From Isoetes taiwanensis (taxonomy: Eukaryota > Streptophyta > Lycopodiopsida > Isoetales > Isoetaceae), in NCBI GenBank assembly GCA_021234155.1, contig JAJEKV010000101.1, forward strand, positions 2,833,089-2,897,088: a DNA stretch of 64,000 nt, read 5' to 3'. This document shows positions 983 through 50,489 of the stretch, piece by piece (positions within the stretch are counted from its first letter, which is position 1; the number at the start of each line of letters is the position of its first letter). Position numbers and translations under genes: made by a program. Under the pieces are notes generated by a model, which saw nothing but the letters and a program-made list of their open reading frames with translations, had not been told where the DNA came from and ran no database searches.

Positions 983-2620
983 TTACCTGCTTGCTCTTTC
1001 AGATTTCCTCATGGCATTGTCCGCTTTCTTGGCATCCTCTTGCAGGGGACTCCACATCTCTGAATGGTATACAACATCACATGCTCCTGGGCAAATATAA
1101 ACCTTACATATTGGACAATAAAACTTTGTTCTTCGTGCACGAGCGGTCTCATGCACAACACCAGCTTCTTTTTCTATAATCCTATTGGCAGCACATACTA
1201 CACATGTTCTATGCTGCCCCTCAGATTTATAGTAAGTAGCATGCCTTGTGGAAGTGTGCAAATAGTTCTCCCTCGTCAAATTGGCTCCATCAAGGTCATT
1301 AGCTATCAATTCTTTCTGTAATAAAGAAAGAAAATCATAATGTGTTACTTCTGGATTCCAATGCTTATAAATAATGTAAGCGTTAGTCAAAACAGAATCG
1401 AGCATTCCCCAAAAGAGAGAATGCCACCATTTCCAAGAAACTTGCTCCCTCTCCAAGCTATAGTTTGAAGCCAAGCACATTTTGTTGTGCACATCACACC
1501 CGGCCTTGTGTTCATTGTATGCTACTGCAATCTCTGGAGCAGCAACCTCTTGACGGTTGCCTCTCTCCACCAAACGCATGACCGTAGACATATCTACACC
1601 GTGCACATTAGAAGCAAACAGAATTGCTTCTTTATCCTGCCATGCACTAACGACAATGCCGGTTTCTTTACTAAATGCAAATTTATTAGTCCCCTTTGGG
1701 ACCTCTTTCTTTTTTCCATCAAATTTCAGCAGCTTTATGGGAAACATTTTGGTCTTATTAGGGTTGATAGTACCTGTACCACCTTGCTTTCTCTTTGATA
1801 ACCATTGGAGCAGCTTGATACTTGTAAAATAACGGTCAAAAAAGACATTATGGCCTGGTGGAAGCTTCTTCACTAGGGCTGATACCGCATGAAATCCCAA
1901 TCCCTCTTCTCGTTTGAGCTTGTCATAGATCTCAAATTGTAGACAATATCCAGAAGCCGAATCACATAAAGTCCAAAGCTGAATACCAAATTTATGAGGC
2001 TTCTTTGGATTGTAAATACGTAAGGGATTCATGGCATTTCTCGATGGAATAATCCTCTCATATACAGTCACCTGTTTACCTGGTGTATACAAGTCAATAA
2101 ACTTTTTGTTCCATTCTTTCTCAACATTCTGAACTTGGAAAATTCTACACTCTCTTGTATTCTTATCATGAGGCCGCAAATGATTGTCTCTCAAGTGAAA
2201 GAATCTTTTAATCTGTTGAGCTCTTTTGAGGGACATAAATCTGCCAAAGTTTGGCCAATTCACTGCTCCAACTTCACCTGATTTCCAATAAGATTGAACT
2301 TTATTGTATGGATTTAGTGCCATGGCCACAATCAGACCCAAAAACCTGAACATGGTACTCACATCGACAGCAGACCAGCTCCTAATATTCTGAAATTTTT
2401 GTCTTGCTTTATTTCTCGCTTCATCTGCATACCTATTAGTTTGACAGATCTGAGACATCAATGTATGTGAGAAGAAGCATGTGAACAACTGAAATGGAGA
2501 CATTCTTTTTGTTCTTGTAGCTGGTCCTCTCTCAAGGTCATAAGAAGGAAGCTTGTGCAGCAAATTATGAGGTAAAGAATCCTCACCAAGGGTCCATGTG
2601 GCAATTGTGGGCTTAGCAAT
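983..2620 (-). pseudogene. piggyBac-type transposase, DDE domain and Cys-rich tail
   Basis: This frame encodes a DDE_Tnp_1_7 (piggyBac/PGBD) domain. It opens with SPFQLFTCFF and TNRYA, then shows RIYNPKKPHKFG, the second acidic site in FFDRYFTS, HGVDMSTVMR, and the third in YNEHKAGCD. It ends with CVVC, YCPIC, YIC and PGAC plus His, like the piggyBac C-terminal zinc-binding domain. In active piggyBac proteins the first catalytic Asp sits in a VDE or IDE motif; here that motif reads TVYER, a single G-to-T change, so transposition activity is unlikely. The frame is open from 2620 but has no ATG near the domain start; the N-terminal half lies in another frame upstream. The stop at 983-985 falls inside a perfect donor (CAG/GTAAGT), so the real protein may continue into another exon. 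It is either a decaying transposon or a relic of a domesticated PGBD-like gene. Confidence 0.85.
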
Positions 2621-3891: not shown

Positions 3892-4377
3892 TGCGACCAG
3901 AATCAAGAAAAATGGTGGAGTATAGCTTTAGAAAGAAAGGGAAGATCAGAGATGGGTCGTTCCTCCTCCAAAGCTCTGTTTCACAGAGCCAATTTTGGGG
4001 GAGAAACGGATCTTTTGGGGCTTCTCTCCCATCCGTCGATGAAGTCGACGTGGCGTCCGGGACGCCGTCCGATAAAAAAATGAGGGCTTCATCTTCATTC
4101 GCGCCAATCTAATGATGGCGGTACTTCCTCTTTTTGCTTTTTTGGGAAAAGTTCATAGCTAACTGCGGGAATTATTTTTAACGGACGCATGGAGTTGAGG
4201 GAAAAAAGGGGTAAAATTGCCCAATTTCAAATGATTATAACTTTAGTAATCATTGTCCAAATGTTATGAAATTTTATAGAAGCATTCGAAATCCAGTTGA
4301 GAACCATGTTTAGTTTTTAAAATCCAAAATTGGTATTTACATTATGAGAATTATGGGTTTATGTGCTAGGGGGTCAG
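3892..4377. other. Upstream region of the piggyBac-type gene
   Basis: This is non-coding sequence between the start of the piggyBac-type gene and the palindrome at 4378. It has a GC-rich stretch near 4020-4080 and turns AT-rich beyond 4200. It would hold promoter and 5' leader if the gene was expressed. I could not find a convincing TTAA-flanked terminal inverted repeat pair for a piggyBac element. Confidence 0.35.
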
Positions 4378-4415
4378 GGGGACCAATTCTGGTCCATGGA
4401 TCCAGAATGGTCCCC
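4378..4415. repeat. 38-bp near-palindrome
   Basis: The arms GGGGACCAATTCTGG and CCAGAATGGTCCCC face each other around TCCATGGAT, with single-base bulges. It sits about 25 bp beyond the point where the outer gypsy integrase stops matching its relative at 8600. It may be the end of a foldback element or mark the rearrangement that truncated the gypsy copy. No protein role is implied. Confidence 0.6.
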
Positions 4416-4441
4416 GGGACAACTCTAGTGTTAAAGGTTTT

Positions 4442-6361
4442 TGTCTTAAGACATTTGTCATGCAAGGATTTCTGCAACTGTTGTCCATGAAGAACACGAA
4501 TGTAAGCGTCTCGCCTAAGTTCATCCAATTGTTCCAATTGATAAACCCGTTCCTTGAGGGCAGCAGGTGGATTATGTGCTGTAGCAAGTTGGAAACAGAG
4601 AGTCGAAAGAATATATTCAAAAGGCATGAGAGCTTCTTGACCATAAACTAGTTTGAAAGGAGTGTGGCCAGTAGCAATTTTGAAACTGGTGTTGTAAGCC
4701 CAAAGAACAGTAGGCAACTTGTCTTGCCAATCTGTACGAGAAGCGTCACAAATTTTCTTGAGAACAGTGATGAGAGTTTTGTTGGTGCTTTCAGCCAAGC
4801 CATTTCCTTGAGGATAGTAAGGTGTACTCTTCCTGTGCTGTATGTGAAGATAGTCCGTCAGCTCCTTGACGATATGATTAACAAAATGCACGCCACGATC
4901 ACTAACAAGTTCCGTGGGACAACCAAAACGTGTGATGATGTGCGTGTAGAGAACCTTGGCGGTGCTGGCAGCAGTGTTGTCTGAAAGTGCACAAGCTTCC
5001 GCCCATTTGGTAGCATAATCTGTGATGACCAGAATATAGCGGGCACGGGTGTGCCGCACCGGTGGGTCCATGGGCCCCACAAAGTCCATTCTCCATTTGC
5101 GGAAGGGAAGTGGCGTGGCGACCGGCGTCAATGGAAGAGCGTCACGGGCCGTGGGCTTCCCCACACGCTGACAGACGTCACACGTGCGAGCATAAGCATG
5201 GGCATCTTTGAAGAGCGTGGGCCAGAAGTATCCTGCCAAAAGAATTTTGCGTGCCGTGGCGTCACCACTAAAATGACCACCACCAAGCCCATCATGAGCT
5301 TGTCGAACAATATCGGGCACCTCATGAGGGAGGACACAACGACGGAGGACCATGTCTTTACCGCGTTTGTATAGATGGCCTGCAACCATGGTGTAATCAC
5401 GGACCTCTCTGAGAAACTGACGGCGGCGTGAGCGAAGCTTTTCTGGAGAGAGCGTCGGATCGTCGGGAGGAAGAGCACCAGTGAGAAGATATTGCTGAAA
5501 GTTGTGAAACCAATGGGGCGTGGCCGTGACCAAGAACAATTGAGCGTCTGGAAAGGTATCAGAAACACCCGTGGAGGGATCATCTGTGTGGATGCGCGAA
5601 AGATAATCAGACACCACATGAGACTTGCCTGCCTTATGAACAATTTCAAAAGGAGCGAATTCTTGCAGAAGAAGGACCCAACGAGCAATTCTACCCGTGG
5701 GCGTGGCTTTGTTGATTAAATAAAGAAGAGCTTGATGATCAACAAAGAACTTGATCTGGCTTCCCAACAAATAATGACAGAAACGTTGGACACAGAAGAC
5801 TAAGCCCAAGGCTTCCCGTTCCGTGGCAGAGTAATTGCGCTCAGCAGGATTGAGTTTCCGGCTGGCATAGCGGATGGGTTTATCCGTGTGCTCATCATAG
5901 GCCTGAGAAAGAACAACACCAATGACAAAAGCAGAGACATCAACATGAACGTGGAAGGGCTTGTCCCATTGAGGAGGAACAAGTACCGGGGCCTGAGTAA
6001 GTAACAGCTTCAACTTTTGAAAAGCAGTTTCCGCTTGGGGATTCCAACCCCAAGTGGATTCATCACCCGTGAGTTTATGAATGGGATCAGCTATAGCTGC
6101 AAGTCCAGGGATGAAGGTGGAATAGTAATTAACCTTACCCAGAAAGGAACATGTCTCTTTGATATTGGAGGGTGCTTGAGCCTTCAGTACACAACTTATT
6201 TTAGCAGGATCCATGGTGATGCCATCTTTACTTACCACATGACCCAAAAGAACGCCTGAGGTGACACAGAAAGTGCACTTCTCAGGGTTGAGACTAATGC
6301 CAGATTCATCACATTTTTGAAAGACAAGCTCTAACTTCTCCAAGTGATCATCCATGGAGCT
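4442..6361 (-). pseudogene. pol: Outer gypsy pol, 3' half: end of RT, RNase H, integrase
   Basis: The frame begins right after the RT catalytic motif (MDDHLEKLELVF) and runs through the RT thumb, then RNase H (VDVSAFVIGVVLSQ, ATEREALGLVF, FVDHQALLYL, DYLSRI). The integrase follows with its H2C2 zinc site (HxxxH ... CDVCQ) and core. The core shows MDFVGP, ITDYATKWAEA, VSDRGVHFVN and the catalytic Glu in PQGNGLAES. These are the D, D, E residues of retroviral-type integrase. The frame is uninterrupted for about 640 residues. After KSLHDKCLKTKTF it leaves the alignment with the inner copy and reads unrelated sequence, so the integrase C-terminus is lost. It has no promoter of its own and its 5' half lies at 13.4-17.0 kb. 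Confidence 0.93.
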
Positions 6362-6366
6362 GTAGG
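6362..6366. repeat. Left target-site duplication (GTAGG)
   Basis: GTAGG directly precedes the left LTR and recurs directly after the right LTR at 13391-13395. Five bases is the usual duplication made by Ty3/gypsy integrase. It shows that the inner element is a single intact insertion. Confidence 0.95.
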
Positions 6367-6946
6367 TGTTAGTCCTGTGCCTCCTGGTACAAGACTATTC
6401 ATGCATACGACGGACCAGGTCAGGTCCAAGGATCCACAGTTAGGCACGGGTCAGTCGTCAAACGCCCAGCAGAAGACCAAGCAGTCAAAGCCTGGGTCTG
6501 CTACCAAGAGGCGCCGCTCAGACAAGTGACGGCCCGTCACCGCCCGCGTCAGCGTCAGCGTGATTTCAGGCTTTTCAAGAGGCACCGCCAGCATTCCTGC
6601 AAATCAGGCCTCCTTCCAGGAGTCGGCACCGAAATCAGTCAGAGTGTCTATATTGGGCCAAAGGCCATTGTACTATATATATGAGTAGAGCTAGCACATG
6701 AGTTTTTTTAGATGAGTTTTGAGTCTTGTCTCACTTCAGTTTTCTCTCGGTTTCGAGAACTCATGTTTCATCATCATTGATATCAAGGAAGCTTATCATT
6801 GTTGTCTCATTGTTCTTTGTTTTCTTTCCCCTTTCCTTTGTTTTCTTGCAAATCCCGCGTGATATAGTCCCCGGATCCTCCTGTTAGATCCAAGGGTCCT
6901 CACAGAGGGCTGTCTTGCAGGAGTTCCCGAACCCAGACCCCAAACA
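6367..6946 (+). repeat. 5' LTR of the inner element
   Basis: The 580-bp LTR runs from TGTTAGTC to CCCAAACA. A TATA box (CTATATATATGAG, about 6673) would drive the element's transcript. Downstream is a T/C-rich leader. The GC-rich patch near 6500-6560 differs from the right LTR. Confidence 0.95.
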
Positions 6947-12804: not shown

Positions 12805-13390
12805 TGTTAGTCATGTGCCTCCTGGTACAGGACTATTCATGCATACGACGGACCAGGTCAGGTCCAAGGATCCACAGTCAGGCACGGGTCAGTCGTCAAA
12901 AGCCCAAATAGAAGACCAGAAGCCGGACCCACGATCAAAGCCCGGGTCTGCTATCAAGAGCCCGCTCGGCACAAGTGGCCCGTCACACCGCGTCGGCGTC
13001 CAGCGTGATTTCAGGCTTTTCAAGAGGCACCGCCAGCATTCCTGCAAATCAGGCCTCCTTCCAGGAGTCGGCACCGAAATCAGTCAGAGTGTCTATATTG
13101 GGCCAAAGGCCATTGTACTATATATATGAGTAGAGCTAGCACATGAGTTTTTTAGATGAGTTTTGAGTCTTGTCTCACTTCAGTTTTCTCTCGGTTTCGA
13201 GAACTCATGTTTCATCATCATTGATATCAAGGAAGCTTATCATTGTTGTCTCATTGTTCTTTGTTTTCTTTCCCCTTTTCTTTGTTTTCTTGCAAATCCC
13301 GCGTGACATAGTCCCCGGATCCTCCTGTTAGATCTAAGGGTCCTCACAGAGGGCTGTCTTGCAGGAGTTCCCGAACCCAGACCCCAAACA
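12805..13390 (+). repeat. 3' LTR of the inner element
   Basis: This 586-bp copy matches the left LTR from TGTTAGTC to CCCAAACA and has the same TATATATATGAG box. Differences cluster between 12890 and 13010. The rest differs by only a few bases. Confidence 0.95.
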
Positions 13391-13395
13391 GTAGG
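13391..13395. repeat. Right target-site duplication (GTAGG)
   Basis: This is the partner of 6362-6366. Deleting 6367-13395 rejoins the outer RT frame across the catalytic motif as QDDFSAYSSMDDH. Confidence 0.95.
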
Positions 13396-13870
13396 CTGAA
13401 AAATCATCTTGAAAGATCTGGAGAAAAGGTTTTTCCTTCATATAGTCTTGAAAGACAGAGAGCATGATGCGCTGAAAGATTGAAAGAGAGTTTGATAGAC
13501 CAAAAGGGACTACCTTGTAGGCAAAAGTGCCCCACGGGGTGGTGAAGGTAGTTTTCAGTTGATCTTCTTTCTTGATAGAAATTTGATTGTACCCAGAGAA
13601 ACTATCCATGAAAGAGTACATCTCATGACCAGCAACTTCTTCAAGAACCTGGTCTGTGAAGGGAAGCGGAAAGTGATCACGCTCCGTAGCTTGATTGAGT
13701 TTTCTGTAGTCCACGCAAACGCGGATCTTACCATTGTGTTTGAGAGCTATGACGATGGGGCTCACCCATTCCAAGTGTTTGACCTCATAAATCAGGCCAG
13801 CAGCTAAGAGTTTGTCAATTTCGGCCTTGATGCGGTCACGGTAATTTGGGTTGAGCCTGTACTATCGTTG
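13396..13870 (-). pseudogene. pol: Outer gypsy reverse transcriptase, N-terminal half
   Basis: The frame shows WVSPIVIALKHNGKIRVCVD, YRKLNQAT, FPLPFTDQVLEEVAG, FSGYNQI, TPWGTFAYKVVPFGL and ends at the catalytic motif FQDDF, where most Ty3/gypsy enzymes have YLDD or YVDD. The nested element was inserted three codons later. A stop at 13871 and a non-ATG start near 13774 separate this part from the protease frame, so the polyprotein is broken here as well. Confidence 0.9.
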
Positions 13871-14992
13871 CTAGATTGGGCGTGCATCAGGCTTGGTAGG
13901 AATGGTGAGTTCCCCCAACTCTGTTTTGATACCTCGAAGGTCTTTGTAACTCCAAGCAAAAATATGTTTGAACTTCTTGAACAGCGTCACCGCGCGTGCT
14001 CTATAGGTGGATGGAAGATGAGCAGCTAATCGGACCGTTTGATTGTTACCAATGTCGACGATTTCCACTTCTGGAGTTTGAATATGAGGAACGACCTCCG
14101 TGTCCTTAACCTGATGAGCAGGAGGTTGAAGCATGATAGGAGGAGCAGTATTTTGAGTAGTGAAGAAAAAAGGCTGCTGAGTGTCATCAAGCAAGGGTTG
14201 CTTCATGACGTCATTAACATCAACAGTCTCCGAAGAAGGGGTACTGTCTGAAAAATGATCAAGACGTTGAATGCAGTTGCAGGAAGCCAGGTATGGGTCC
14301 AAAAGAGCAGCCACAGCCTGGTCCTGATCCAGCATCATCTCCCCCCAAGGATCAGCGTACTCCGGGTAGGAGGAAAGAGGCAGACCCGCGGGTGGAGCTT
14401 GAACATGATAAATATTTTGTGCTTCCTCCGAGTCAGTGTCTGAGATGGAAGGTTCTGCATTCTCGACAGAGATCAATTTGCCAGTTTCCAGATCCATTGT
14501 GGCATTGAGATGTCCATCAGTGATAACAAGTTGGTCCGTGGCCCAGTAATGAATACTCTTAGCCTGGCGGAGAAAAGGTCGTCCAACCAGCATTTCATAA
14601 TCACCAGGATCTTCTCCAGCTTTCCAAACACCAAATTCCAATGGGAATTTGAGATCACCAATGCTGATATGGAGAAGAGGGGTGACACCTTGAGGGCGCG
14701 TGATATGGCCATTTGCCAACTTGATGTCATAAGGAGCACGGTATAATTGTTTGATACCCAATTGCTTCCGGAGTTTATCAGTAATAAGATTGACGGAACT
14801 ACCACCATCAATTTGGACATGATTGATGTGCTGATTGCCCACCGTGGCGTGCACCGTGGGTGTTGAGGTCGCAACAGCTCCAACCAGAACCGTGGGAAGA
14901 GGTAACTGATCTTTGAGAGCCGGACAGAGTTTCAAAATGGTGGCCAGGCTCAAAGGAATCTTGATCTTGGCGAGTTCTTCCTGAAGTTCCAA
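13871..14992 (-). pseudogene. pol: Outer gypsy protease and RT leader
   Basis: The frame encodes an aspartic protease of retropepsin type with VQIDGGSSVNLIT at the active site; DGGS in place of DTG/DSG is common in plant Tat and Athila elements. ANGHITRPQGV and DYEMLVGRPFLRQ follow, the latter carrying the psi-loop ILG-type motif. A linker of about 180 residues leads to FAWSYKDLRGI, the usual start of the RT domain. It lies between gag (upstream, shifted near 15005) and RT (downstream, after a stop). Confidence 0.88.
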
Positions 14993-15764
14993 AGGAACAT
15001 CGCAGGGTCCAGTGGAGCTAGAGTCTGTAGTAAAGAAGCGGAGACTTCTTTGAGAAGCTCTACCTCAGCAGCAATATTTGGATACGGTTGAGAGCATGTG
15101 CCAGTAGATGATGACGGCGCTGTCTGACGCTGCTGAGCTCTGGTGGTCGCGTGAACATTTGCCAGTGTGCGACCTTTCGCAGCCTGCATGAGTTTCAGAA
15201 TACTTTGTCTCACTTTAGGCATGACGTGAGGCATGAGTTTGTCAAGATCAGGCACGAAGTGAACTTTTTTATCATCGTCATGAGGGACTGTTTCCACAGC
15301 AAAAGCAAGTTGCGTATCGTGAGGAATGATAGTCAAAGGGCGTGAAGCCCGTGTGTGACGTGAGACGAGATCAACCCAATTTGACTGCTATACTGGAGGG
15401 TTCAGTGCCTGATAAATCTCCTCTTGGGCTTGCTGATCCATGGGATTGGAGGTAGTTGCAGCTTGCTGAGGTCGCTGTTGTTGAGGCGGCCGTGGTGGCT
15501 TCCTCAAAACAGGACGGGGGCCTTGTTTACCGTTGGCCACCCAGAGTTGATAAGCCTGAGACGTACTGAAGCTGGTTGATTTGAACCTGGAAGTTGGACT
15601 TGAACTTAAGGAAGTTGAGGACACGCCGTGGTGGTGTGACCCCATTCATGACAATGATAACATTGAGCCTTGGAAGGATCAAAGGGAGGACGGTTGCCTT
15701 GTCCCCGTGGCTACTGAGTTTGCTGCGTTTGTTTATACTGCTGCGGTTGTTGAATTTGATATTG
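14993..15764 (-). pseudogene. Outer gypsy gag-protease connector
   Basis: A frame with Pro/Gln-rich sequence (PPRPPQQQRPQQAATT) ends in a TAG at 15388-15390 and then continues in the same frame (HDTQLAFAVETVPHDDDKK, HVMPKVRQSILKLMQAAKG). It then shifts into the protease frame near 15005. It has no recognised domain and is the usual variable linker between nucleocapsid and protease. The single internal TAG fits a CAG-to-TAG change. Confidence 0.7.
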
Positions 15765-26523: not shown

Positions 26524-29503
26524 TTAGTCCATCTGGGTTTCTGATACTGACTCAGGTACAACACCTATCTCAGCAGCTATCCTAGCAACATGTTCCTGCC
26601 CCCTTTGTATAACCTCTGCTGTGTCCATCTCACTATAGCCTGTTACATCTGGGATGTCTACAGACATGGCCTGTGCAAGGACTTGGATATGTGGATCCGG
26701 TCCTTCAGTCTCAGTATCCATAGCGCTGCCTTCGACCGCTGCGCCACTCTGCACAGCACAGGCGATATCGGGTGCATGGAAGAGCTTCTGTTTCTTGGCT
26801 GGAACCTGATGCTCTTGTGTACCTGATGGCTCACCCTCTTGATCCGCAGGGTCCACGTCCATGCCTACGTATTCGAAACTCGACCCGCCTGTCAAGAAAG
26901 GCATGTAGGCATCAAATTTTTTGTTTAAAGCCCCCAATTTTTGAAACACGGGCTCTAGCGCAATAATACCTTTCTCAGTAGACTCCAGAAGTCTTTTCGT
27001 TTCCTGCATCCTTTCCTCATAGCTTTTCTCATCCATTTGATCCAAGATTTCATCAATTTTAGATATATCTGTTTTCTGGGTAATGTTTAAATTGATCTTG
27101 TCAGGATCATTTACAGGCTCTGCCTTCTCCTCTTCAACTGTCTCCCCAGTGCCCTGGCCAACCATTTTTTCGAGCTTATCCAGGAAAGCCCTCAAAAATC
27201 AGCATACTTTACCCTGGCTTTCGAAAGAAATACTTTTCTTTCTCTGCATTAAGGCGACACGGGAAGCAGTACCTGCTGAGAAGAAATCAAGGACACAACC
27301 ATCCTTGGGCACAAGCTTGTCAACTATGTAGTAAGCATATGATGTCTTCAACTGGCACTTCAGCACGTGATCACCTTCCATTCCGACAAACTTGTACCTG
27401 GGTTTACCCGTGAAGTAAGTCTGCCATTTTTTCTTCATTTTCTCATCAGTTTCTTCGTTACCAGTGACAGGCATTGGTGGCAAGGGGGTGTTCTTTGGTG
27501 CAGTGCTCACCTGTGTGAAATGAAGCTCCAGCTCCGGCATTATCGAGTTGACCCTGGAGTCGCTTCTGTTAATACACATATGGGTGATGTAATACTGATA
27601 TTCCTTCATCCTTTTCTTGTTCACCCATCCTGGCTCGTCCGATGTGCCTACTGAAATATGGGACCCGCTTTGAATCTGTTTTTGGCTGTACAAGCAATCT
27701 GGCAAGTTCACAGACCGCATCAGAATCACCAGGTGATAAATGTTAGCAGTTGTCATGCTGGATATTCTTGTGAAGAGTTCCATGTATTTTTTGCACGTCC
27801 ATAATGCAGAGAATCCTCTAATGTCTATGAACACCAAAGTTGCATTCTCAGATACTGGAGTGGAGGTAGGAATCCCTTCCTTTGTCACAGCATGTACAAC
27901 ATTTTTCTTCTCCTTGATTTTGATAGCCTCTTCAGGCTTCAAAATCGATCTAATGGGTTCTAGAAATGCAACGGGCAAATTACCCACAACATGATCCTTA
28001 TTATAATTGGCTTTCACGTACTCTGTATCCGAATCAGATATATCCAGAATCCGCTGTTCCGTGAAAGCAGGAAATTCAGAAAGCAATTCTTCCCAAAAAG
28101 TGTATTCTTTCTGAAGCAAGGTGGAAGCGTATGACAAAATCTCTTTCCGCATGAAAATCAAGCTTCTAATATCAATGGCGCACTGCTTGCAATCAAACCT
28201 GCCATGATATCCGGCTTGCACCTTAATGTATGTCTTTCCTTCCAAAATCTCATCAAGAAGTTGAGAAACCTCTGCATTAGACATGCCTCGAAGGTATCTT
28301 AACCAGGTTTTGTTGAAGAACTCCTTCGAGGGCTTATCAGGAAAATCTCCATGCTCATCACAGATTTTTTTGTTGACCCATTTGTTGGCCACTTCCATTA
28401 ATTTTCTGAAGACCCGCTCCTCCATAAAAATAAATTGTTTTTCGTCTTTTAGCTCCTTCACCTTCAATGTTGTGGTAGCTATCTCGTGGAAGTCCTACAA
28501 AACAAATGGTCAGGAAAATCGCGGCCGCGATGTTCATGAGCTAAGATAAGAAAAATACCTTCCATGCTGAGGTTGTAGCAGTACCAATGGGACCTTGCGG
28601 AGGACATCCATACGCCTTATGTTGATGCCGCAGCTGTTGAAGCTTCTCTAACAATGGCTCTCTATATACAGTGCTAGCAATGACTTCATTGCACTGAATG
28701 CTCAATTCAATATATTCTCTATCTGTCAAGTTTCTATTAAGCACTCTTGTTCTTCTCCTGGCGTAGGCTTTAGCAAACTCTAGCCGTTGTTCCAGCTCTC
28801 CAACAATACCGCAGAGCAATTGAGCTGCACATATACTGTGGTTACCAGATATTATCCAAAATTTCTTGCCCTTCAAATCAGCTTCTGTGCTCCACGTGAT
28901 CTTTTTCCTGAAATAATGTGCACTTATAAGTTAGGAAGCCACAAACCAGAAATGATGGACAATAACAATCACCTGGTAATGGGATCGAAGGGGACAACAT
29001 CGGCCGGTGTGAGCACCTCCGTAGGATATGTCTTGAAACTCTTCACGAGAGTCTGCACATGGTCGTTTGAACGCATTCGATGCGTGAGGTTAGCAGGAGC
29101 TGGCTCGCAATCAAAGATAGAGACTTTCATAAACCAGTTCACACCAAGCGGATAGAACCGTTTGAATTGTTCAAGCTTCTGTGCAGTTTGTTCTGCCAAT
29201 TTGCGTTCTTCCTCAGGATTGAATTTAAGCTCGGTCGGCAGTTCAGAAACGACGGGCCATATTAAGCTCTTCGACGATGAAACACCTGAGACGGAAGGGG
29301 GTGTGCGGGAAGAAGAAGGTTCTCCTGTCAGAAGTAGTCAGTTTGCGGAGGTTGATCGTGAACTTAGATATCTTACTTGGGACAGTAGTATGTGTCATCA
29401 CAATAGGGGGAGCACAAATAGCCAAAGGCTGAGTAGGAATAATAGCAGAAGGTTGGGCAGTGGCAACCAGCTCCAGACAGGGCTCTGGTGTGGGTAGAGT
29501 CCT
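26524..29503 (-). pseudogene. Locus A: spliced ParB-like / amino-methyltransferase-like protein
   Basis: Four exons join in frame with GT-AG introns of 52, 65 and 64 bp: 29503-29377, 29324-28973, 28907-28559, 28494-26524. A Pro/Ser-rich lead precedes a ParB-like segment (WFMKVSIFDCEP, VQTLVKSFKTYPTEVL, then FWIISGNHSICAAQLL in the place of the GxHR..A box). A helical middle with a CxxC pair (FDCKQC) follows. Next is a permuted methyltransferase-like domain: ATLVFIDIRGF at the motif IV position (about 27825) and VLDFFSAGTASRVAL like AdoMet motif I (about 27290). The tail is acidic and coiled. The DPPY-type tetrad is replaced by DIRG, so catalysis is doubtful. An in-frame TGA at 27199-27201 splits the tail from the rest. 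The first exon begins at an acceptor and upstream exons are missing where the repeat at 29575 starts. Family assignment is by motif pattern; the splice joints are strong evidence of a real gene. Confidence 0.65.
28518..28531. repeat. 14-bp GC-core palindrome in a locus A intron
   Basis: ATCGCGGCCGCGAT is a perfect palindrome inside the 64-bp intron 28495-28558. It is the same length as the palindrome in locus B introns but has a different core. Confidence 0.7.
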
Positions 29504-33597: not shown

Positions 33598-33872
33598 CTT
33601 TCTTTCTTTCTTTCTACAAGTAAAAATATAAACTTATAATTATAAATTATAAGATTTATAAGTATAATTTATACTTAAAATATAAGTATATACTTATAAA
33701 TAAAGTATAAATTTATACTTTATACTTAAATAAGTATAAATTTATAATTTATACTTAAATAAATTTGTATTTGTAATTTATACTTATAAATAAAGTATAA
33801 ATAAGTATAATTTATACTTAAATAAGTATAATCTATACTTAAATAAATTTATACTTATAAATAAAATATAAA
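33598..33872. repeat. AT-only self-complementary tract
   Basis: After a (TTTC)n run at 33598-33614, overlapping TATACTTATAA, AAATAAGTATAA and TTATACTTAAA strings fill the stretch. The same vocabulary occurs at 30410-30600, 32715-32770 and 34797-34900. It can fold extensively on itself. Confidence 0.75.
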
Positions 33873-45038: not shown

Positions 45039-45270
45039 ATGTCACGTAAATCTTTGTCTTCACTGCTTTGTATGGGTATGCTGAACCCGCCTCGAGGCAA
45101 TAATGAAAGATTCGCAGACGGAGATAAAAAACTTTTTCTTGAGTGGCTGCCGTCCATGCTGCAAATGGACAAAGACCTGTACTCAGAAACAGACATGCAC
45201 CACACCTACTGTGCATGTACTAAGTAAGGAAGTACACTAACTAATTAAAATAGTATTAGTAGCAGCTTGC

Positions 45271-45325
45271 CTATGAGCGCATAGCCCGGGTGTAAGATGA
45301 ACTCTTATTGCCCATGCGCGCATAG
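45271..45325. repeat. Palindrome pair at 41-bp spacing
   Basis: CTATGAGCGCATAG at 45271 and CCATGCGCGCATAG at 45312 each differ by one base from CTATGCGCGCATAG. The 27 bases between them are unrelated to the spacers elsewhere. Confidence 0.85.
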
Positions 45326-45940
45326 ACAAGATGTCATAAATTACTGTGAGAGATAAGCCTGTTACCTACTTGAGCACAGGGAAGACGTAATAATAAAGTC
45401 TATAGCTCAAGCGACGGAAGACAAGATAAGATAAACAACTGTAAAGGAAGAGCGGGAAATACGAAGAGACTTTGTGTGGGCTTGACACTCCATAAAGGAT
45501 CGCATGAAATGACACGCTACACTCTTCGTGTATAATCTCATAGAAAATATCCAAGTACTAACGTAGACAATAAATAGGGAAAAAGGGCGCACATTTCTGC
45601 ATACAGACCGAAGCTCCTGGGCGCTCGACCTCCGCCTTCACACTCAGTCCGCTTTTTTTACATATCGAAGTCTATAAGAAGCTGCATAGACTCGCGGCAA
45701 ATGGCAGGTGGAAGGTACATCAAGATCTTAGCTGCTAGTTAATTAGCTCACCCTTTTTTTTTTGTGCATTATTTGCTTAATTAGGCTGCCTCCAAAACGA
45801 TTAAAAATGTCAATTTCTTAAGTATTTCTGGCCTTCTTCCTGTATTCTAGATATGTTTTGTTTGTTTTAGGTCATTTTGTGATTGGGTTTGTCTATGCGT
45901 GCATGAGAACAATGGTGTTTTTAGTGCTTGTCCTTTTAGC

Positions 45941-46187
45941 CTATGCGCGCATAGACACAAATCTTTTTTCTTAAGCTTAGCCTATGCGCGCATAGACACA
46001 AATCTTTTTTCGTAAGCTTTGCCTATGCGCGCATAGACACAAAGCTTTTTTTCTCAAGCTTGACTATGCGCGCATGGGCTTCAGCCTTTTTTTTAATCTG
46101 ATCCTATGCGCGCATGGGCATAACACTTTTACTAAAGGTCGCCTATGGGGATAAGATTTTCTGAATTGGTTGGCTATGCGCGCAAAG
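45941..46187. repeat. Palindrome array, 41-bp period, in intron 1 of locus B
   Basis: CTATGCGCGCATAG is exact at 45941, 45982 and 46023. One-mismatch copies lie at 46064, 46104 and 46174, and a weak copy at 46143. Spacings are 41, 41, 41 and 40, then shorter. The first three spacers are variants of one T-rich sequence. A partial copy precedes at 45893. Confidence 0.95.
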
Positions 46188-46716
46188 TTTTAATACCTTA
46201 CTATTTTTAATATTTCAGTAAGAAGAGAAACCTTGCACGGGGTAGCCAGGATGATGAAGGTGGATCCTCCCAGAAGGCAGCCAGGAAGAGGAGGACGACG
46301 AAGGACAAGAGTCAGGATGCAGTTCTGGCTCCAAGTCAGCAACAATTTCAGGAGGCCGAAGATGGCTCCCATTTTTGTAAGGATCAACAGTGGTTGCTTG
46401 TCAGGGGTACCGGTGATCTAGCAACTGCGCATTTTTTGTATTTGTACATTTGTTCTGAGACCGGCAAGCAAACACAAGACCTGGAAAGCTTCAGAAGATG
46501 TGACAGGCTCGTGGATGTTGGTCTGTTTGGTATGTTCCACATCAAGTGCACAACCACCACCAAGGGCAGTGAACATGTATATTCCGTGGATAGTTCATTT
46601 TTTAAGCTGAGTTTGTCTTCTCTAGAAGATATGCAAGGCTACATTCAGGCAAGAATGAAGAGTAAAATTGTAAGTGTTATTTTCCTGCACGAGAAGACTT
46701 TACCAACGTGTTTGGT

Positions 46717-46730
46717 CTATGACATCATAG
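46717..46730. repeat. Palindrome arms with altered core in intron 2 of locus B
   Basis: CTATGACATCATAG keeps the CTATG and CATAG arms of the locus B palindrome but replaces the CGCG core. It lies in intron 46670-46743. Confidence 0.5.
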
Positions 46731-47801
46731 GTTTTATTTGCAGGATCTTCTTTCTATACTAAAGGATCTTCTTTTGAACAAGGATGCTCTGTTAAGTTCT
46801 AGCGCACCTCCTGCTAAGCTGCTGGGATGCCATGCCTCAAGTTGCCAAGCTAATCATCCCCAGAATCTCAGAAACTGTTGAGGTGGCAACATTGGATGAA
46901 GATGAACCTTCGGATCCCGAATCTGAAGAGGAAGAGTTTGAGGTTGAAGTGGTGGAGAGGCCAAAAAAAAAGAAAGCCAAAAGAAATTATTACAAGGCAG
47001 GCCTGGTGACTGACACTGCTCCACCAACTAGCAAGGCATCAAGAAAAGCCACTAAGGTAGTTTTGCCTCCAGCACCGGGTACAAGGATTGCCAGTAAGGA
47101 AAAAGACATGGCTTCTAGGAAGCTCGAAGAAATTGAGCTGAGATGTCGTGTGCCTGGGATCATGCACCTGCAGGTTGATTGTGTTAAGTTGTGCCCAAAG
47201 GATGAGTCTGGTGAGAGACCTTTGCAGGTGAGGAAAATTTACTCTGGTCATTTGTTTGCTCTTAAGGAACGTATAAGGGACAGACCAAATGCAGCTACAG
47301 CACCGGACATTTGCATTGTTGACCCTTCCCAGTGCACGGAAAGGGATTTGTTTGTAAAGGAAGAGGATGAAAGCTACATGTAGTTTGTTTTGGGTGGCAT
47401 TCACAGCTTTAAGGCGAGGAGGCAGCTTTTTAAAGAAACTAAAGAACACTGCTTCTCTCAAATATTTGCATTTGTTTACGTGGGTGTCACTGACTCTGAA
47501 GCCAAGTTGCTTGCCATGAGCCACAATGTGGACAATGAATATCGGATGAGCATGAGCTTCACTGACAAAATTAAGTTTATGCATAAGGAATACGAGCTTT
47601 TTAGGTCGGAGCATAAGGGTGACAAAGGTATAAAGGATGATCAAAACCTTTATCTGGCTCTTAAAGAGCAGTGTGCTACAGAGTGCTGCTTAACATACAA
47701 CTCCACTGATGCCAGAGCATCTCTTGTGAAGTACGACAACTACTTCCAACTAGCTTTTAGGCATGGACGTGTAAGATAACTTTCTTCTCCAAGTTCTTTG
47801 A

Positions 47802-47815
47802 CCATGCGCGCATAG
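47802..47815. repeat. Single palindrome in intron 3 of locus B
   Basis: CCATGCGCGCATAG, one mismatch, in the middle of the 89-bp intron 47771-47859. Confidence 0.85.
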
Positions 47816-48359
47816 CTGTTCAGTTTTCTTACCTTTATTTCTTTCTTGTTCCTTTTTAGGTCTGGGAGCTTCAAGAAAAAAAATTTGATATGTTTGCTGA
47901 GGGTACACTAAAATCCAAAGGAAAGGTGAAGGATCCAAAAAGAAAAAAAACTGAACCTGCAAAACAGAATGACATGGGTATCATGGTCTGGAGGGAAATG
48001 CAGGGTTTAGAAAATACAGAAAAAGTTTGTGAGGTGCTACAGAAGGTGGTCAATGGCCACTTTACCTTGGAGGAGATGCAGGGTGAATTCAAACAGTAAG
48101 TTAAATTCCTGATCCAAAACACTAGCCAGTTCTTGTTGGTAGTTTACGTTCTAGAGTTTTTTAAGACTCCTTACTTTTGCAGCCAAAAGGATTGTGCACT
48201 CTGTCAGCAGCAACTCATGGTCCACCTTAACTGTGACACATTGGAAAAAGTTAAAGAATTATACCCTACTTGGTCGTCGGATGAAAAGATAAACCAATAC
48301 GCTTCGAATTTCACGAACTGGGTAAAATTTGTTGTTCCCCTACTTATCTTGTTGTGTGC

Positions 48360-48528
48360 CTATGCGCGCATAGCACTACAAGAAGTCCGTTACTGTGGTG
48401 CTATGCGCGCATAGGCTGACACTCGGAACTTTTGTTTTCTTCTTCTTACTAAAGCTGTTTTCTTGTTGTGTGGCTATGTGCGCATAGCACCACAAGAAGT
48501 CCGTTACTGTGTTGCTATGCGCGCATAG
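48360..48528. repeat. Two palindrome pairs in intron 5 of locus B
   Basis: Exact copies at 48360, 48401 and 48515, and CTATGTGCGCATAG at 48474. Both pairs are spaced 41 bp. The second pair is a 114-bp-shifted duplicate of the first, including the spacer agaagtccgttactgt. This spacer is unrelated to those in intron 1. Confidence 0.95.
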
Positions 48529-49037
48529 GAAGAAACTTTGCACTTTCGTCTTCTTGTTCTTACTAAAGCTGTGTTCTGTGGTTTTAGAAAAATAAGGACC
48601 CGATGACGCCAGGGTTTCTTAACATGGTTAGACTTGCTAAGGAAGAGCGCGCCAAGCTAAAGAAGAAGGAAGAAGCTGAGCAAAGTTTTGTACCAACAGA
48701 ATTTGAAAGGTTTGACATGTTTGGTCAGAATTGTTTATACCAAATATATCATGGAAATTGTGTCAAACTTGACCATACATTGAAATCTGGCAATTATTCG
48801 TTGTGTATTGCTGATATTCCTTATGGGTTCAAGCTACCTGATAGTCGAGGAGATGATTCTCCATTTACTTATGCTGAATTTGATTCTTTCTTGAGTCGTT
48901 TCGTCAAAATAAATACTGCACCGCTTTGGAGGATAATAGTTTTTCATTCAAGTAATCAGGCAGGTGGTACAAGCTGCAATGAGAGAGCACTGCAAAGCTG
49001 GTTACAAGCCAGCCATTTGGTAAGTTATTTCTTTTTG

Positions 49038-49051
49038 CTATGCGCGCATAG
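49038..49051. repeat. Single palindrome in intron 6 of locus B
   Basis: An exact CTATGCGCGCATAG in the 62-bp intron 49020-49081. A half-site (GTGCGCGCATAG) remains downstream of the gene at about 49774. Confidence 0.9.
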
Positions 49052-49584
49052 CACACAATAACTCATTGGTTGCGGTTGCAGGTTGAAGACGAATGTAAGA
49101 GGAAATGGCGGTGGTGCAAGGCTTATAAATGTTTGGGAACGGATGCACATTGGTTACCACATCATTGCGAGAAGCATTTTGCACTATAATCGGGCTTTGG
49201 AATGGATTTCACGCGCGTTTCAATTCCCCAGCCATTCAGAAATTAATGTAGACCAGTACACCGTGGTCGTGATAGTCAATCCCTATCAAAAGCCTCAATG
49301 ACTTATTAATACCCTTTTAGAGATGTTTTCACGGCCGGTGGCCGGGTCGTCGATGCCTTTCGTGGTCGGGGACCACCTTGGCGTGTGCTTTAAAAAAAGG
49401 GTCGCGAAGCGCCTTTGTAATTGATTTTGATAAGGATTACGTGGTTTATATAAAATCGAATAAGTTCTCGACGACCTCCCCGGATGAGCGAACCAGGAGG
49501 TTGGCCTTAAGGATAAGGATGGTAATCCATGCCTTCAAGCTCGAGCCTTTGCCGCCACTCAACGGGAACACCAACGATCCGTAG

Positions 49585-50489
49585 GAATTTCGCCGAAAGC
49601 TTGTTCCTGTAGAAGAGCTTCAAAGGTTGTGGAAGAGAAGGATGCCTCGGACGAGGGAAGTTAATCTCGACAACTCTACTAAGGTTCCCTCTCCTCCGTT
49701 CCGATGACTAACTTGTTCACAAGGATCCTCCTCTTGATATTTAATGTGTGCTAAAAAAAGGACATTTTTTTAAGTGCGCGCATAGACATTCTTCCTTCCT
49801 TTTGTATTTTTGTGTCGTAAGAAAGTGCATCTTCTTAGTGTGTCTTAACACAAAATCTGTCGCTCGCTTTTAGAATTGGCCATATTTGGAATGCAACTTT
49901 ATTTTTTGGTATTTGTTTTTTTTTAAATGGTCAAAACCGCCGAATTTCGTTTTTGAAAAGGAATGCACGCAATTGCACCTGTGAGGTCATTAGTGCGTTT
50001 GCACCGTCACCTTGTTTGATCCCAAAAGGTCAACCAATGTCTACCCATTTTCCTCAGTGCCTCCACAGTATTCTTGATGTTCTGGAGTTCCATGTTGACC
50101 AAATACCAACTCGAAATAACCTAAATGCCTCATCTAGCATCTCCTTCAAGTGCGGTCGTGGATAGATCCACTTGGAATTTGATTCTACTGGTGTCTGGTG
50201 AAACTGATCTGGAGCCACTTTATTTTTTGGAAAAGTCCTACAAAGAACTCCATTTAGGTCAAATACGTCAACCTTCTTAGAAACACAAGGGAAGCTGAAA
50301 CATCAAACATGTATCTGGTCAGCAAGATATGATTAATATGCACACCCTTATATTATACATTGCAATAATACAAACGCCCCAGACATGATTTGTATTAGGC
50401 TTAACCAAATCGCACTCGACGTGATTTAGTCTAACAATGAAATGTAATCAAAGCACGTTTGGCGCGATTTAATTCAAACTGAAGATAAA
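49585..50489. other. Intergenic stretch after locus B
   Basis: No coding frame recognised. It holds the palindrome half-site at about 49774. Near 50400-50500 short variants of gcgcgattta / gacgtgattta recur (acgtgatttagtc, gcgcgatttaattc, gacgcgatttcatc). Confidence 0.4.

Follow-up and report, generated by a model that had tools for sequence, protein, structure and literature searches.

The palindrome repeated in the introns of locus B is part of a DNA transposon. It is confined to the noncoding DNA of this element, it is replaced by other palindromes in divergent subfamilies, it has diverged together with the element's own proteins, and its copies tend to be spaced by whole turns of the DNA helix. 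It is likely, with a rough probability of 0.6, that the palindromes are self-recognition sites of an element-encoded dimer, most likely the ParB-like/methyltransferase protein M, for self-marking or anti-silencing. The prediction that an element-encoded protein recognises the palindromes is well supported. That M is the binder, that methylation is the output, and that anti-silencing or self-marking is the purpose is what I infer.

Results

The palindrome array at locus B

The window is the whole 64-kb stretch of DNA that was analysed. The original prediction had claimed about 14 copies of the 14-mer palindrome with at most one mismatch, seven of them exact, in 3.8 kb of locus B. The same seven coordinates were recovered, together with seven copies with one mismatch. 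When both strands of the window were searched with up to three mismatches, 16 matches were found (seven exact, seven with one mismatch, and two with three mismatches at 45893 and 49772), while dinucleotide shuffles of the window gave a mean of 1.02 and at most 4 matches, and 16 was reached in 0/100 shuffles. The 14 sites that are exact or have one mismatch all fall inside 45271-49051 and, as had been claimed, in introns 1, 3, 5, and 6 of an exon model based on reading the window sequence and on tblastn to relatives. The palindrome had been said to be absent elsewhere in the window, and the sole match beyond 45271-49051 has decayed to three mismatches and lies at 49772-49785, in the noncoding terminal DNA of this element. 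No palindrome array was found at locus A, a divergent gene in the same window with a ParB-like box recognised by eye, which counts against the reading favoured here.

The M gene of locus B lies on the plus strand. Exon 1 (45075..45224), whose coding start is not fixed, is 94% identical over 50 amino acids to a copy on C38 (L036:21-170) and is followed by a GT donor. Intron 1 (45225..46219) has sites at 45271, 45312, 45893 (decayed), 45941, 45982, 46023, 46064, 46104, and 46174, and TRF detected a 41-bp array at 45936-46115; this spacing of about 41 bp had not been part of the original prediction. Exon 2 (46220..46672; tblastn to relatives) has no palindrome. Intron 2 has the variant that had been described as having the same arms and another core; it is CTATGACATCATAG at 46717..46730, read from the sequence. 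Exon 3 (46745..47770), also without the palindrome, encodes the ParB-like domain (VLGGxHSFKARRQL ... VTDSEAKLLAMSHNVDNEYR), for which relatives give weak ParB profile matches; its frame is broken in this copy by one shift and one in-frame stop. A single one-mismatch site (47802-47815) was found by the window search in intron 3 (47771..47859), whose orthologous intron was compared across subfamilies. Exons 4 (47860..48095), 5 (48183..48321), and 6 (48588..49019, with methyltransferase motif IV, ADIPYGF) were placed by similarity to relatives. Intron 4 has no palindrome match with up to three mismatches in the window search, while the sites of intron 5 (48322..48587) at 48360, 48401, 48474, and 48515 lie inside a 114-bp tandem duplication (TRF), and intron 6 (49020..49081) has a site at 49038-49051. 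Exon 7 (49082..49745, end approximate), placed by similarity and split over two frames, encodes the SAM-binding part of the methyltransferase. The terminal noncoding DNA on the plus strand (49746..50016) contains the decayed site and ends with the right transposon terminus, AACAAGGTGACGGTGCAAACGCACTAAT in minus-strand reading (49989..50016), of which an identical 28 bp is found at L036:4959 and versions with three mismatches in L037-L039.

A two-gene transposon encoding a putative ParB-like methyltransferase

Locus B derives from a high-copy DNA transposon with two genes. This copy is broken, retains one terminus, and is without the T gene. Full elements are about 9 kb long and have two divergent genes, T for a DUF7869 protein and M for a ParB-like/N6-N4 DNA-methyltransferase. 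Two full copies of the sub1b subfamily have matching inverted termini (C1026:14528801-14538013 and C1104:127520-136790). These are flanked by 4-bp target site duplications, ACTT and CGCC, in 2/2 full copies with both termini, which I take to fit the Sola superfamily. No terminal repeats were found in the 12.5 kb searched around a sub2 element on C1030. There are 2246 candidate M exons genome-wide (150 matches scored) and 9902 candidate DUF7869 exons, with 150/150 of the scored ones over the cut-off. The T protein is probably the transposase. The terminal repeat itself is without the palindrome, and thus the transposase presumably has another site.

M is, as judged from its sequence, a ParB-like domain joined to a putative beta-class N6-adenine/N4-cytosine DNA methyltransferase. 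Pfam N6_N4_Mtase matches exon 7 of the intact copy L036 (L036:3955-4653) with 47.6 bits and an exon of L040 with 50.5 bits (cut-off 26.7), while exon 6 and part of exon 7 of locus B gave no Pfam methyltransferase match. The order of the motifs is the permuted one of the beta class, with motif IV (ADIPYGF, exon 6) before motif I (DAFSGLGTT, exon 7) in L036. The ParB-like assignment is plausible. The ParB profile matches are weak (PHROG ParB, E 0.00086 in 2/6 members and 0.058 in 3/6; NCBIfam ParB, 0.017), the only Pfam match to this part is DUF6551 (0.016, 4/6 members), and unrelated families match at similar strength, such as IgA0_D2 with 0.004 in one member. Sequence and profile searches of solved structures (PDB) gave no ParB match for this part, and a single-sequence structure model of the locus B domain was uninformative (pLDDT 36). 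Viral contigs yielded no relative of the ParB-like domain that could be confirmed, and no phage record matched the ParB-like ORF; 354 phage records matched the methyltransferase part at E 0.01.

Confinement to noncoding DNA

The exact 14-mer of locus B occurs 1551 times in 1.658 Gb, while the reversed control, also a palindrome and of equal composition, occurs 0 times. It is not an evenly spread satellite, and it recurs in introns of homologous genes, being present in 30/30 copies (the best-scoring 30 of 150). In these copies, 0/253 sites lie in mapped coding DNA, even though 63,765 of 101,658 bp are coding, where exons were mapped by similarity. The corresponding numbers are 0/23, 0/32, and 0/48 for three other locus sets, and 0/9, 0/11, and 0/8 for L059, L061, and L060, respectively. 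In relatives, the motif occurs in introns, between the T and M genes, and in subterminal DNA. A sub2 intron of L040 with a motif B variant is open in frame without a stop and was called an intron by homology; a strict open-frame reading would place this one site in coding DNA. With exons placed by similarity and this one intron by homology, the pattern is that of the VANC systems, namely a family-specific motif restricted to the noncoding DNA of its element.

It had been proposed that the palindromes serve either self-recognition or autoregulation of the gene by its ParB-like domain. Autoregulation at locus B is unsupported, because this copy is decayed and the sites are also found in intergenic and subterminal DNA. 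Self-recognition is supported by the motif in all of the 30 best copies, by its absence from their mapped coding DNA (0/253 sites), and by other palindromes in divergent subfamilies. The ParB-like domain is a candidate binder next to the DUF7869 protein, since T co-diverges too.

Palindromes specific to subfamilies

Relatives with 48-56% identity in the ParB-like part bear different palindromes, GTATTCCGGAATAC, GTATGAATTCATAC, and GTATAAATTTATAC. The exact genome counts of the locus B palindrome and these three are 1551, 3720, 64, and 12,556, against 0, 0, 11, and 17 for the reversed controls, which are also palindromic. All share a plan of constant TAT/ATA arms and a variable 6-bp core. In a cross-table of 16 loci, 13 of which were picked by M or T similarity with the motif not known beforehand, motif A was found alone in 7, B alone in 4, D alone in 4, and the remaining locus had C together with some D variants. 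At one orthologous intron, sub1 and sub1b have A, sub2 and a variant have B, and sub3 has C, in every case exact or changed at 1-2 positions. Distance in the motif goes with distance in M: ParB-like identity of 67-69% goes with the same motif or 1/7 half-site changes, and identity of 47-56% with 3-4/7, in a comparison of five M sequences with half-site changes counted by hand (rows M2_C1043 and M2_C1030, cut out of frame, were left out).

Could these be functionless minisatellites expanded by chance in introns? Arrays with 41-bp and 114-bp units are present, and arrays do evolve through duplication. However, the palindrome persists while the spacers form many unrelated groups, single sites are kept in the orthologous intron, sub1 and sub1b share the same 14-mer at a coding DNA identity of just 68-69%, and the same places in other subfamilies are occupied by other palindromes. 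Chance expansion is thus very improbable. A host factor that recognises the palindromes for silencing or activation, with subfamilies diverging to escape or exploit it, is improbable as well. An arms race also predicts family-specific divergence, but it would be odd for a harmful target to be kept in as many as 16 exact copies within 1.7 kb, and a single host factor would not be expected to track a motif whose changes go along with those of the proteins that the element encodes.

As the motif diverges, so do T and M alike, and thus covariation does not choose between them as the binder. A disagreement between T and M trees that had pointed to M was dropped, as DNA alignment revealed it to be an artefact of T frameshifts in sub1b copies. 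The DUF7869 protein, or another product of its gene, might bind the palindromes as internal and subterminal sites of a transposase or regulator, in the manner of TnpA of En/Spm, with M as a separate accessory. Apart from the equal co-divergence, this reading is favoured by some subterminal sites, which in the two full elements lie about 340-560 bp in from either end. However, most sites in these elements lie deep inside, in introns or between T and M, and the terminal repeat has none. Moreover, the DUF7869 core is equally similar in DNA between subfamilies with different motifs (64-67%) and with the same motif (65-67%), whereas the upstream T exon differs (47-51% between different-motif and 62-66% between same-motif subfamilies). 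I regard binding by the DUF7869 protein as unlikely, and M as the better candidate.

Spacing of the sites

Site spacing favours a period of about 10.4 bp at every grouping level tried. Hand-compiled spacings gave R 0.57 (n = 33), and R 0.41 (n = 21, jitter p 0.007) without the 39-43 class. Automatic spacings up to 130 bp gave R 0.60 (30 groups), and R 0.58 without 38-44 bp (25 groups, 1/3000 jittered sets), where spacings of 83, 84, and 124-127 cannot count as independent because they are multiples of 41-42. Automatic spacings up to 75 bp gave R 0.89 in 17 groups from 249 pairs and R 0.87 in 11 groups without 38-44 bp (equally good jittered sets, 0/20,000), the 75-bp limit having been picked after other spacing runs. 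When the grouping threshold was then varied on the same 249 pairs, 43, 71, and 115 groups gave R 0.60-0.65 at 10.3-10.4 bp. With 38-44 bp set aside, the 23, 39, and 56 groups had R 0.42-0.46 for a period of 10.2-10.3 bp (p 0.0074, 0.0012, and 0/5000). The 38 distinct distances outside 38-44 bp had R 0.28, and off-phase distances are present (26, 35, 47-50, and 57). The period is real but partial, a tendency corrected only in part for common descent of the arrays.

This tendency points to double-stranded DNA and bears on the idea that the palindromes form RNA hairpins aiding intron splicing. Palindromes can form hairpins in RNA, and many sites are intronic. However, sites also occur in T-M intergenic and subterminal DNA, intron 4 of locus B is free of them, and the cores vary between subfamilies; a splicing role is scarcely credible.

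Discussion

In the proposed mechanism, a two-fold symmetric element protein, most likely M, would bind the palindromes in the noncoding DNA of the element, with its ParB-like part acting as a dimer. As the distance between sites is often about 2, 3, 4, 5, or more turns of the helix, neighbouring dimers might line up along one face of the DNA. M may then act on the element that encodes it, marking or remodelling it by methylation or by antagonism of host silencing, and would leave the host genome and other subfamilies untouched, much as VANC proteins act on VANDAL elements. The 6-bp core would have changed along with the protein, while the TAT/ATA arms remained constant. A broader proposal, tentative and somewhat short of even odds, is a large transposon superfamily in a land plant in which the ParB-methyltransferase of each subfamily reads a private palindrome, at sites that tend towards helical phase, and places a base modification of bacterial type on the noncoding DNA of its element, a prokaryote-derived, protein-coded self-marking against host silencing that would keep subfamilies apart.

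Bacterial ParB dimers bind short palindromes (parS), often several per replicon. In contrast, no segregation role is expected here, the domain is fused to a methyltransferase, and the profile similarity is weak. The En/Spm protein TnpA is an element product that binds a repeated short motif and also affects methylation; its sites are subterminal, whereas those described here are palindromic and mostly intronic and intergenic. VANC proteins are not known to contain a ParB-like or a methyltransferase domain.

In Arabidopsis, VANC proteins of VANDAL elements are reported to bind short tandemly repeated motifs in introns, between genes, and in noncoding terminal DNA of the family that encodes them, with other motifs in other families and co-evolution of motif and protein; the VANC21 motif, YAGTATTAY, is not palindromic (PMC5735166; PMC10398659). 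The present system is alike in its family-specific short motifs restricted to noncoding DNA of the element, in their arrays, and in the co-divergence of motif and protein. It differs in the transposon type (VANDAL elements are Mutator-like), in the palindromic motif, and in that binding is predicted here. If M is the binder, VANC-type self-recognition would have evolved again, from prokaryote-like parts.

The closest counterpart in domains is Sola1-1 of Ectocarpus, which has a gene for a ParB-like and N4/N6 methyltransferase protein opposite to the transposase, and the ParB-methyltransferase proteins of algal transposons were suggested to bind and modify their own transposon (PMC12477816). Both the domains and the divergent arrangement are shared. 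In contrast to the algal case, the host here is a land plant and the companion gene encodes DUF7869; no target sequence is given in the available text of PMC12477816, whereas here there are target-like palindromes that differ by subfamily. Self-binding and modification had thus already been proposed, and what the present sequences suggest anew is named candidate targets for transposon ParB-methyltransferases. With four palindromes differing by subfamily, thousands of natural sites, and matching proteins, the idea is directly testable, and the exact motifs can be looked up in long-read modification calls. The pairs of palindrome and protein also offer a natural series on how a ParB-like domain changes its DNA specificity.

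Palindromes in the noncoding DNA of locus B and its relatives

In the window, the palindrome CTATGCGCGCATAG (motif A) occurs between 45271 and 49051 in seven exact copies and seven copies with one mismatch, as the original prediction had described. These 14 sites are confined to introns 1, 3, 5, and 6 of the plus-strand spliced gene of locus B (the M gene, for a ParB-like/N6-N4 methyltransferase). Shuffles of the window gave about one match to motif A with up to three mismatches allowed. A frequent step between neighbouring sites, unremarked in that prediction, is 41 bp, and the intervening DNA varies among arrays.

Locus B proved to be a copy of a transposon. On contig C38, a relative has two divergent genes, M and a companion gene T, whose product, a putative transposase, contains Pfam DUF7869 (E 2.3e-36 in L002, a copy on contig C9). 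Two full-length relatives of about 9.2 kb, at C1026:14528801-14538013 and C1104:127520-136790, have AACAAGGTGACGG at start and end and lie between 4-bp duplications (ACTT for one element, CGCC for the other). The right terminus is still present in the window copy, at 50016. Similarity to the C38 copy runs from 45055 onward, which is the edge of the C38 piece compared, and the adjoining C38 piece (L035) gave no match to the window copy. No T exon was found in the window, and exons 3 and 7 of M have a disrupted reading frame; locus B thus represents an old, incomplete copy. T in the C38 copy is split by about 7 kb of other DNA containing repeated open frames (L035, C38:70500-80499). One locus B exon has 2246 genomic candidates, of which the 150 that were scored are matches; of the 9902 candidates for T, the 150 scored were all above the Pfam cut-off, and T had no match among 14 control genomes.

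The 30 copies ranking highest in exon similarity (L005-L034, of which the first is the window copy) all have motif A. With exons mapped by tblastn from queries trimmed by hand at splice sites, 253 motif A sites (two or fewer mismatches) lay outside coding DNA and none inside it, the coding share of these copies being 63,765 of 101,658 bp. Similarly, coding DNA held none of the 23 palindrome sites in three other loci of sub1, the window copy's own subfamily, none of the 32 in three loci of subfamily sub1b, and none of the 48 own-motif sites in three sub2 loci; in the sub2 locus L040, one intron with a variant of the sub2 motif is open in frame, with no stop, and was assigned as intronic from its homology to sub1. 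One copy (L007) sits within the C38 piece L036 and is counted in both locus sets. Sites also occur in a T intron of L002, in the region between T and M, and 340-560 bp inward from both ends of full elements. The claim that the palindrome is restricted to introns thus holds for the 14 sites of locus B but is too narrow for its relatives.

Palindromes differ between subfamilies

Copies of sub1b, at 67-71% identity to locus B, retain motif A. Copies at 54-57% identity (sub2) lack it and have motif B, GTATTCCGGAATAC, instead (three of three fetched). A third subfamily, seen at one locus, has motif C, GTATGAATTCATAC, together with the intermediates GTATGAATTTATAC and GTATAAATTCATAC, and a fourth has motif D, GTATAAATTTATAC, exact at 10 of 11 sites in the locus L061 and 16 of 16 in L062 (sites with at most one mismatch). 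In the assembly of 1,658,258,908 bases in 1110 sequences, exact copies of A, B, C, and D number 1551, 3720, 64, and 12,556, against 0, 0, 11, and 17 for reversed controls (the same letters read backwards, themselves palindromic), the excess of motif C being modest. The abundance of motif D suggests recent amplification. When 16 loci were cross-tabulated, the motif classes were exclusive, except that D-like variants also occur in the C locus; 13 of the 16 had been picked by M or T similarity alone, while the window copy and two C38 pieces were already known carriers of motif A. Among loci drawn by motif, which were the first places listed and not a random sample, the clusters at C9:305 kb, on C1, and both on C3 adjoin T or M exons, that on C2 matches an M exon weakly, and L001 has only an element-like terminus.

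Many of the exact sites in L062 (C1076:6830800-6832499) are spaced 30-34 bp apart. The piece L059 has C/D hybrid sites at 2073-2734, possibly a snapshot of one palindrome turning into another. In the window, an AT-rich tandem repeat at 33683-33831 has one exact motif D (33705) with similar palindromes adjoining, and may be a remnant of an element of the fourth subfamily.

Five in-frame M sequences were compared, with half-site changes counted by hand. The pair sharing motif A is 67% identical in the ParB-like core, the C/D pair 69% (one of seven half-site positions changed), and pairs differing at three or four of the seven 47-56%. The intron after the ParB-like exon carries motif A with one change in sub1 and sub1b, a motif B altered at one or two positions in sub2 and a sub2 variant, and exact motif C in the third subfamily, where the splice sites are provisional. 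T divergence keeps pace with that of M and the motif, so co-divergence does not indicate which of the two is the binder. An apparent conflict between T and M trees was rejected as a frameshift artefact.

Spacing of the sites

Adjacent sites were grouped by spacer similarity. The 17 groups at 75 bp or less (19, 21, 21, 29, 31, 32, 41, 41, 41, 42, 42, 42, 51, 51, 62, 72, and 73 bp) gave a peak period of 10.4 bp (R 0.89), and the 11 groups remaining without the 38-44 bp class gave R 0.87, with 0 of 20,000 jittered sets as good. Finer grouping weakened the claim of phasing: the period was 10.2-10.4 bp, with R 0.60-0.65 overall and 0.42-0.46 without the 38-44 bp class (p 0.0074 or less). The 38 distinct distances outside that class gave R of only 0.28, and further runs 0.41-0.60. 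The tendency toward about 10.4 bp suits a protein binding one face of double-stranded DNA better than an RNA hairpin.

Domains of the M protein and other features of the window

Pfam N6_N4_Mtase is above its cut-off in the methyltransferase part of two M relatives (47.6 and 50.5 bits versus 26.7), while the window's own M exons gave no match to it. This part, in which motif IV precedes motif I, also matches NCBIfam CcrM at 4.9e-10, under that model's own cut-off. The upstream part has GGxHSxKARR and then TDxEA...HNxDNEYR, which I take to resemble the ParB pattern. Some of the six M members compared match two PHROG ParB families (best 0.00086 and 0.058), NCBIfam ParB gives 0.017, and Pfam only DUF6551 (0.016); in the same profile comparison, an unrelated Pfam family reached 0.004 in one member. 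With such weak profile support, the upstream domain would best be termed ParB-like.

Elsewhere in the window, locus A (26527-29337, minus strand) is a divergent gene with long open frames, a visually recognized ParB-like box, and N6_N4_Mtase similarity below threshold (0.017); no palindrome array was found near it. A 545-aa open frame at 986-2620 (minus strand) encodes a transposase (DDE_Tnp_1_7, E 2.7e-54), presumably of the piggyBac type. Open frames at 4337-6394 and 13334-15064 look by eye like fragments of Gypsy-type LTR retrotransposons.

Probable self-recognition and known systems

The palindromes would be sites retained for a dimeric DNA-binding protein encoded by the element. I put the probability of such self-recognition at roughly 85%, unchanged by the weaker phasing, since it rests mainly on subfamily specificity and confinement to noncoding DNA. 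I favour M as the candidate binder, with fair likelihood: palindromes are what a ParB-like fold would bind, a transposase has to work at the termini, where the palindrome is lacking, and the sites are scattered across noncoding DNA rather than clustered at the ends. The methyltransferase of M suggests that its output might be marking of its own element's DNA or interference with silencing, a purpose to which I give even odds.

Among the literature found, mostly outside subscription journals, none names DUF7869, and the portions available give no target palindromes for ParB-like/methyltransferase proteins. Transposon self-recognition is known: according to two reports, Arabidopsis VANC21 binds YAGTATTAY, arranged as tandem repeats, in VANDAL21 introns, intergenic regions, and noncoding ends, whereas different motifs occur in the sequences that VANC6 affects (PMC5735166; PMC10398659). 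ParB-methyltransferases in transposons are also known; Ectocarpus Sola1-1 has a ParB-like/methyltransferase gene opposite the transposase, and its authors already propose that proteins of this kind attach to and modify the transposon encoding them (PMC12477816). What appears new, judging from this literature, is a palindromic address code that differs among subfamilies of a land-plant transposon.
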